From Vulcanimicrobiota bacterium (GTDB lineage Bacteria > Vulcanimicrobiota > Vulcanimicrobiia > Vulcanimicrobiales > Vulcanimicrobiaceae), in assembly GCA_019240755.1 (NCBI GenBank), contig JAFAXS010000072.1:1-42191 (forward strand): 42,191 bases of DNA. The letters are read 5' to 3'. Below, piece by piece: positions 36,324-37,191 of this stretch. The translations under genes and the position numbers were made by a program. The notes under the pieces are model-generated. The model made no database searches, was not told the DNA's origin, and saw only the letters and a list, made by a program, of their open reading frames with translations. The stretch's first letter is position 1. Every line of letters begins with the position of its first letter.

Positions 36324-36824
36324 ATGGCCATCGCCGACGACGTATTTGTCCCCGGGCCCGCATCGCATCGCGCCAGGCTCGATCTGAGCTGCTCCGCGCA
36401 AGAAGCGTTTTCGCTGCTCTGTTCGGTCGAGAAGTGGCCGGTCTGGCTTTCCATGCTCCGCAGTACGCGCCGAACGACGAACGACGGCGACCTGCGCATC
36501 GGCAGCGAGGTCGTTATCCGTTCGTCACTCCCCGGCGAAGAAGAGCAGATGTACGAAGTGGACGCGCTGATCCCCAACTACCGCCTCTCCCTGGTGGGGG
36601 CGTACTCCGTCCGCCGCCGGTTGGATTTTCGCATCGAGCAGAAGGGCTCGAGCGCGCGGCTGCACGTGCACATCTCCTACCCCGCCTACCACGGCAAAGT
36701 CGGAAAGATGCTGGATCGCTGGCAACGGGGCCGCCGCCTCTCGAGCGCGCTCGATGACTCGCTGGTTCACTTCAAGGGCCTGGTCGAATACCGGCGCGAT
36801 GCGCCCGTGCTCGCCGACTTCTAG
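36324..36824 (+). CDS. SRPBCC (START-like) domain protein
   Basis: 166 aa. Begins with RARLDLSCSAQEAFSLLCSVEKWPVWLSMLRSTRR, the usual helix-grip start of polyketide-cyclase/coenzyme-Q-binding SRPBCC proteins, followed by alternating beta strands (GEEEQMYEVDALIPNYRLSLVGAY, RRRLDFRIEQKG) and a C-terminal helix (GKMLDRWQRGRRLSSALDDSLVHFKGLVEY). It likely binds a small hydrophobic ligand; identity unknown. The CIRCE element and fmdB-type gene start just after its stop. Confidence 0.85.
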   Translation: MAIADDVFVPGPASHRARLDLSCSAQEAFSLLCSVEKWPVWLSMLRSTRRTTNDGDLRIGSEVVIRSSLPGEEEQMYEVDALIPNYRLSLVGAYSVRRRLDFRIEQKGSSARLHVHISYPAYHGKVGKMLDRWQRGRRLSSALDDSLVHFKGLVEYRRDAPVLADF

Positions 36825-36828
36825 AAGA

Positions 36829-36855
36829 CTAGCACTCGTTGACCGAGAGTGCTAG
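36829..36855. promoter_or_regulatory. CIRCE element (HrcA operator)
   Basis: CTAGCACTC, 9 nt, GAGTGCTAG: a perfect 9-bp inverted repeat with 9-nt spacing. The CIRCE consensus is TTAGCACTC-N9-GAGTGCTAA, so 16 of 18 arm positions match, and the two differences are complementary. HrcA binds this to repress heat-shock genes (groE, dnaK). Here the -35 box of the fmdB-type promoter lies inside the spacer. Confidence 0.92.
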
Positions 36856-36867
36856 CACCGCTATACT
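36839..36867 (+). promoter_or_regulatory. Sigma-70 promoter of the FmdB-type gene
   Basis: TTGACC (36839-36844), exactly 17 nt, TATACT (36862-36867). The -10 ends 6 nt before ATG 36874, so the transcript should begin at about the A of the ATG (leaderless). The -35 lies within the CIRCE spacer, so HrcA binding would block RNA polymerase. Confidence 0.85.
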
Positions 36868-36873
36868 GTAGGC

Positions 36874-37191
36874 ATGCCGCTCTACGACTACGCGTGCACG
36901 CGTTGTGGGCGCACCCACGAGGTGCGCCATGGGTTCGACGAGACCTATGATGCGCCGTGCGAGGCCTGCGGCGCCCCCGTACGCCGAGTCTTTAACGCCG
37001 CGCCGGTGGTGTTCAAGGGCTCGGGCTTCTACGTAACCGATTCCCGCCGCTCGGGGAAGGCGGCCGGCGAGAAGCCGAAGACCGAGACCGGGGCAAAGGC
37101 CGAGGAATCAAAGCCGGCCGACGCGGCCAAGCCGCCCGAGAAGAGCGCCAAGACCTCCGGCCCCGCGAAGCCCTCGGAATCGGCGGCCTAG
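36874..37191 (+). CDS. FmdB-family zinc ribbon protein under CIRCE control
   Basis: 105 aa. N-terminal zinc ribbon: Cys8-x2-Cys11 (ACTRCG) and Cys29-x2-Cys32 (CEACG), in the FmdB pattern MPLYDYACxxCGxxxE. Residues about 45-55 (VVFKGSGFYVTDS) complete the conserved part. The remaining about 50 residues are a Lys/Ala/Glu/Pro-rich tail of low complexity. FmdB proteins are called putative regulators, but their partner is unknown. The CIRCE promoter suggests heat-shock or proteotoxic-stress induction. No Shine-Dalgarno upstream. The stop overlaps the aroA stop on the other strand within a CTAG. Confidence 0.88.
   Translation: MPLYDYACTRCGRTHEVRHGFDETYDAPCEACGAPVRRVFNAAPVVFKGSGFYVTDSRRSGKAAGEKPKTETGAKAEESKPADAAKPPEKSAKTSGPAKPSESAA

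Follow-up and report, generated by a model that had tools for sequence, protein, structure and literature searches.

The window analyzed here, a stretch of 42,191 nucleotides from a 2.59-Mb draft genome assembled into 174 contigs (G000), carries a gene of the FmdB family on its forward strand (fmdB, 36874-37191), in a locus flanked by an M20 peptidase cluster on one side and by aroA on the other. The 105-residue product scores 54.8 bits against TIGR02605 (cut-off 31.3) and 45.6 bits against the Pfam family Zn_ribbon_8 (PF09723; cut-off 34.4), and it shares with the members of these families an N-terminal MPLYDY, two CxxC pairs, the FKGSGFYVTD motif and a low-complexity tail, here rich in Lys, Glu, Ala and Pro. 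The initial annotation had called this tail basic as well as of low complexity; the latter holds, whereas the basic character is only mild (11 K+R vs 8 D+E past residue 52, with a computed pI of 9.4). No solved structure is similar to the protein by sequence. The family takes its name from a formamidase regulator, and no formamidase is found among the neighbours identified at this locus. To our knowledge, functional data are almost lacking for the zinc ribbons of this family, small proteins of wide distribution. The next gene downstream, aroA, is convergent to fmdB. On the other side, a gene of the same strand (36324-36824), which we take to be SRPBCC-like, is the same-strand neighbour of fmdB in 85 loci of the family; it has no match in Pfam, and its NCBIfam score for TA_Rv0910_toxin lies far below the cut-off (28.2 bits vs 100).

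Five nucleotides beyond the stop codon of this upstream gene begins a CIRCE inverted repeat (36829-36855, forward strand), the predicted operator of HrcA, composed of a left arm CTAGCACTC, a spacer GTTGACCGA and a right arm GAGTGCTAG. As first described for this stretch, the element is a perfect 9-bp dyad with a spacer of exactly 9 nt, and 16 of its 18 arm bases agree with the CIRCE consensus TTAGCACTC-N9-GAGTGCTAA, the outermost base of each arm being the only mismatch. It is the sole CIRCE match in the window at up to three mismatches, for a chance expectation of 0 in 100 dinucleotide-preserving shuffles. The promoter elements also lie where they had been placed by the earlier reading: a -35 box TTGACC (36839-36844, forward strand) falls within the CIRCE spacer, and a -10 box TATACT (36862-36867, forward strand), separated from it by 17 nt, begins 6 nt beyond the right arm and ends 6 nt 5' of the fmdB ATG at 36874, so that the operator overlaps or adjoins the promoter. 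This pair of boxes is the only promoter-like site between 36200 and 37300 (expected 0.0, s.d. 0.2). Since aroA is convergent, fmdB is the sole downstream target of the element, and the initial claim of a single FmdB-family target agrees with both this arrangement and the family scores.

A functional operator is supported by its conservation: the comparison of orthologues, one of the two refuting conditions named in the initial annotation, came out in favor of that annotation. The upstream regions of 89 fmdB orthologues from the home family were read directly, scoring as positive those in which a TTG resembling a -35 box is accompanied by 11 or more matches among 16 arm positions, with a C/G exchange allowed. 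Under this rule, a CIRCE-like dyad surrounds the -35 box in 63 of the 89 orthologues, distributed over 26 genera, as opposed to 8 of 17,800 shuffled upstream regions and 1 of 1,218 other 300-nt segments from the same loci. The bases conserved at these 63 sites are the CIRCE arms and the -35 and -10 boxes: TTGA is invariant throughout, TATACT is identical in all 16 sites of genus g1, and most arm columns hold 1.3-2.0 bits, compared with 0.01-0.23 over the 15 bases that precede the left arm, although these arm values are biased by the selection of sites on their arms and the shuffle test is the fair measure. A truncated locus (L104) shows the right half of the site, pattern searches reveal the site in two family members outside the 89 (G033 and G034), and in a sister family (f2) each of the four genomes matched carries a TTAGCAGTCGTTGAC-type site before fmdB. 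In a pattern scan of 149 genomes of the phylum, taken to be Candidatus Eremiobacterota from the named records of close relatives of the fmdB locus, 60 genomes match, all of them from the home family and one (G071) at a place other than fmdB; the reversed control pattern has no matches in the same genomes. A composite pattern of operator, TATACT and ATG matches 21 of 99 genomes and was dropped as a measure, because it undercounts: spacing and -10 sequence vary between genera.

The same comparison delimits the distribution of the operator. The 26 loci that were read from further families of the phylum keep fmdB and have no CIRCE site. Conservation of the order M20 peptidase, upstream gene, fmdB extends to the level of the class and includes families that have no site, and the upstream gene and fmdB are still adjacent in family f3 of the class. 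Within the home family, the site is absent from genera g32, g35 and some others that retain hrcA, indicating that CIRCE control of fmdB is not essential. The simplest reading of these sequence comparisons places the origin of the operator in the ancestor of the order, with several losses thereafter, for instance in g32 and g35.

The conserved sites also bear on how the fmdB message may begin. In the window, the start codon (36874-36876, forward strand), lying 6 nt after the -10 box and preceded by no Shine-Dalgarno (SD) motif, coincides with the predicted transcription start. The spacing between -10 box and ATG was rejected as significant by itself, given that 1.33 such hexamers are expected in the window at one mismatch; the leaderless layout is instead put forward because it is conserved among orthologues. 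In 45 of the 63 conserved sites the -10 box ends 6-10 nt before the start codon, which is ATG in all 45 cases, with an SD-like motif in only 3. In the remaining 18 the gap widens to 31-60 nt, and every one of these genes starts with TTG or GTG and has an SD-like motif. Leaderless mRNAs are known to favour AUG, and this division of start codons and SD motifs by leader length matches what leaderless translation predicts. The claim of a leaderless transcript made in the initial annotation thus gains support from a strict division among orthologues, the transcript start itself being a prediction, and we infer that the fmdB mRNA of the window is leaderless and starts at or next to the ATG. The family appears to offer a natural comparison: a single operator would govern a leaderless mRNA with an ATG start in some genera, and in others an mRNA that has a leader, an SD motif and a TTG or GTG start.

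Many of the fmdB sites depart from the consensus at one position, with GCAGTC in place of GCACTC in one or both arms. The arm combinations at this variable position are G/C in 23 sites, G/G in 22, C/G in 8 and C/C in 7, a distribution from which no strict covariation of the two arms is claimed. Such departures might suggest that a repressor other than HrcA, with a site resembling CIRCE, operates at the dyad, particularly as many orthologues carry GCAGTC/GACTGC and not GCACTC/GAGTGC, the base is changed in both arms in 23 of the 67 scored fmdB sites, and, taken as a group, the fmdB sites are distinct from those of groES. We consider this improbable. In the genus to which the window belongs the fmdB sites either follow the canonical form or are changed in a single arm, and the same exchange occurs in operators of other genes: 11 of 21 operators of hrcA itself hold a GCAGTC/GACTGC half-site in at least one arm, and so does an hsp20 operator (L197). 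The presence of the exchange in these operators argues that the HrcA of this family tolerates the variant, making a separate repressor unnecessary, and a single regulator can plausibly read both forms of the half-site.

Two further explanations dispense with an active operator. The gene might be expressed mainly by read-through from the unit formed by the M20 peptidase and the upstream gene, leaving the CIRCE promoter minor or vestigial; the conserved gene order, even where CIRCE is missing, and the 5-nt distance from the upstream stop codon to CIRCE are in keeping with such an arrangement, and a scan for terminators between the upstream gene and fmdB found none. Promoter and operator are nonetheless conserved over 26 genera, which is unlikely if they were unused, and with a 49-nt gap and no SD motif fmdB would probably be poorly translated from an mRNA of this kind. 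We therefore regard read-through as the main source of expression as no better a prospect than a separate repressor, although possible read-through from the upstream gene could blunt regulation. The position of the repeat directly after a stop codon could also be that expected of a terminator of the upstream gene, or the repeat could be a chance palindrome. No T run follows the dyad, however, the bases conserved among orthologues are those of the CIRCE arms and the -35 and -10 boxes, and the shuffle tests exclude chance, so that this last explanation is very nearly negligible.

The genome of the window holds three CIRCE sites at up to three mismatches: in addition to that before fmdB, a search for other sites yielded two, one before hsp20 and one before groES, and none was found at the dnaK-grpE-dnaJ cluster with the same threshold. 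That cluster (L100, contig C30) has the order dnaK-grpE-dnaJ and no hrcA; the genus mates keep hrcA elsewhere, with a second dnaJ. The result for hrcA in this assembly counts against HrcA control: neither Pfam PF01628 nor the HrcA of a genus mate as query retrieved a convincing candidate. On the other hand, hrcA occurs in 91 of the 99 genomes from the family and is preceded by a CIRCE site at the hrcA loci examined. Two genus mates show the order hrcA, dnaJ paralogue and RsmE-like gene, the gene names being our own reading of the sequences, and a search for rsmE in the draft genome, run with no positive control, did not find it either. Because rsmE is also missing and hrcA is so frequent in the family, the hrcA block likely falls in a gap of the assembly. 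The absence of hrcA, the other refuting condition of the initial annotation, was hence set aside as a refutation of HrcA control.

Other CIRCE-like elements were noticed along the way. In four loci of genus mates (L051, L057, L201 and L203), dyads such as TTAGCACTCACTACCTAAGAGCGCTAA lie some 100-145 nt before a gene that we take to be MraZ-like from its sequence, with no family search behind the name; these dyads may represent terminators, or else a link between the cell-division cluster and HrcA. In six loci of relatives (L058, L061, L063, L191, L193 and L205), a degenerate CIRCE stands just before the start of a second small gene (M[ED]FVVRARLG...), which we presume to be Hsp20-like.

Taken together, these observations favor, with a probability that we put at roughly 85%, a reading in which HrcA acts on the CIRCE element as its operator, the element covers the -35 region of a sigma-70-type promoter, and this promoter serves fmdB alone, producing a leaderless transcript. 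In the unstressed cell, HrcA, held in its active state by GroEL, would occupy the dyad and keep RNA polymerase from the -35 box. Upon stress, misfolded protein would occupy GroEL, HrcA would become inactive, and the induction of fmdB would accompany that of groESL, hsp20 and hrcA. Such a scheme follows the accepted model, in which repression by HrcA depends on GroELS and is relieved by non-native proteins (PMC3842655). The dyad, its overlap with the promoter, its conservation and the CIRCE targets of the family are observed; binding of HrcA, heat induction, the transcription start and a stress role of FmdB are the predicted parts of this scheme, which would make fmdB a new and lineage-specific HrcA target.

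The initial annotation had also attributed to FmdB a probable role in heat shock or protein folding. The prediction of heat-shock control by HrcA is well supported; for the folding part there is only a suggestive hint. It comes from a genome from another class of the phylum (G103), in which fmdB, a CIRCE-like dyad (TTAGCAATC-N9-AATTGCTAA, with 3 mismatches), groES and groEL follow one another on the same strand (L241, 2135-4740), an adjacency in a single genome that provides a lead. Two contexts within Eremiobacterota, the CIRCE promoter conserved in one order and the proximity to groESL in a single genome from another class, hint that FmdB zinc ribbons could be a general and overlooked part of the bacterial response to protein damage, perhaps by assisting, as proteins that bear zinc, the GroEL or DnaK machinery or ribosomes under stress; this is a generalization that we deem rather unlikely at present. 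Within narrower bounds, a conserved predicted HrcA operator constitutes a direct clue to the participation of FmdB in the class I heat-shock response of at least one bacterial order, and the conserved switch is predicted to tie a widespread zinc-ribbon protein to the response to protein damage.

The control of heat-shock genes by CIRCE and HrcA is textbook knowledge, and what is new here is fmdB as a predicted target and the depth of its conservation. Literature searches retrieved no paper joining CIRCE and FmdB, or HrcA, CIRCE and "zinc ribbon", and nothing on point for heat shock in Eremiobacterota. Regulation beyond the chaperone genes nonetheless has antecedents. In Geobacter sulfurreducens, rpoH is a non-canonical target of HrcA (PMC545781), those of Lactobacillus plantarum include an integrase and a gene with no known function (PMC3842655), and the 49 deregulated genes reported in Helicobacter pylori reveal effects of HrcA outside the chaperones (PMC6843607). 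G. sulfurreducens and L. plantarum thus provide a precedent for HrcA sites or effects beyond groE and dnaK, as proposed here for fmdB. With the class I regulon itself (groESL and hrcA-grpE-dnaK-dnaJ), the fmdB site shares the 9-N9-9 operator consensus (PMC3842655, PMC545781), the overlap with the promoter and the fact that the genomes concerned also hold groES, hsp20 and hrcA sites. It departs from that regulon in the GCAGTC half-sites of many orthologues, in a dnaK-grpE-dnaJ cluster that in the genome of the window lacks CIRCE at up to three mismatches, and in its target, a zinc-ribbon protein that is not a known chaperone.
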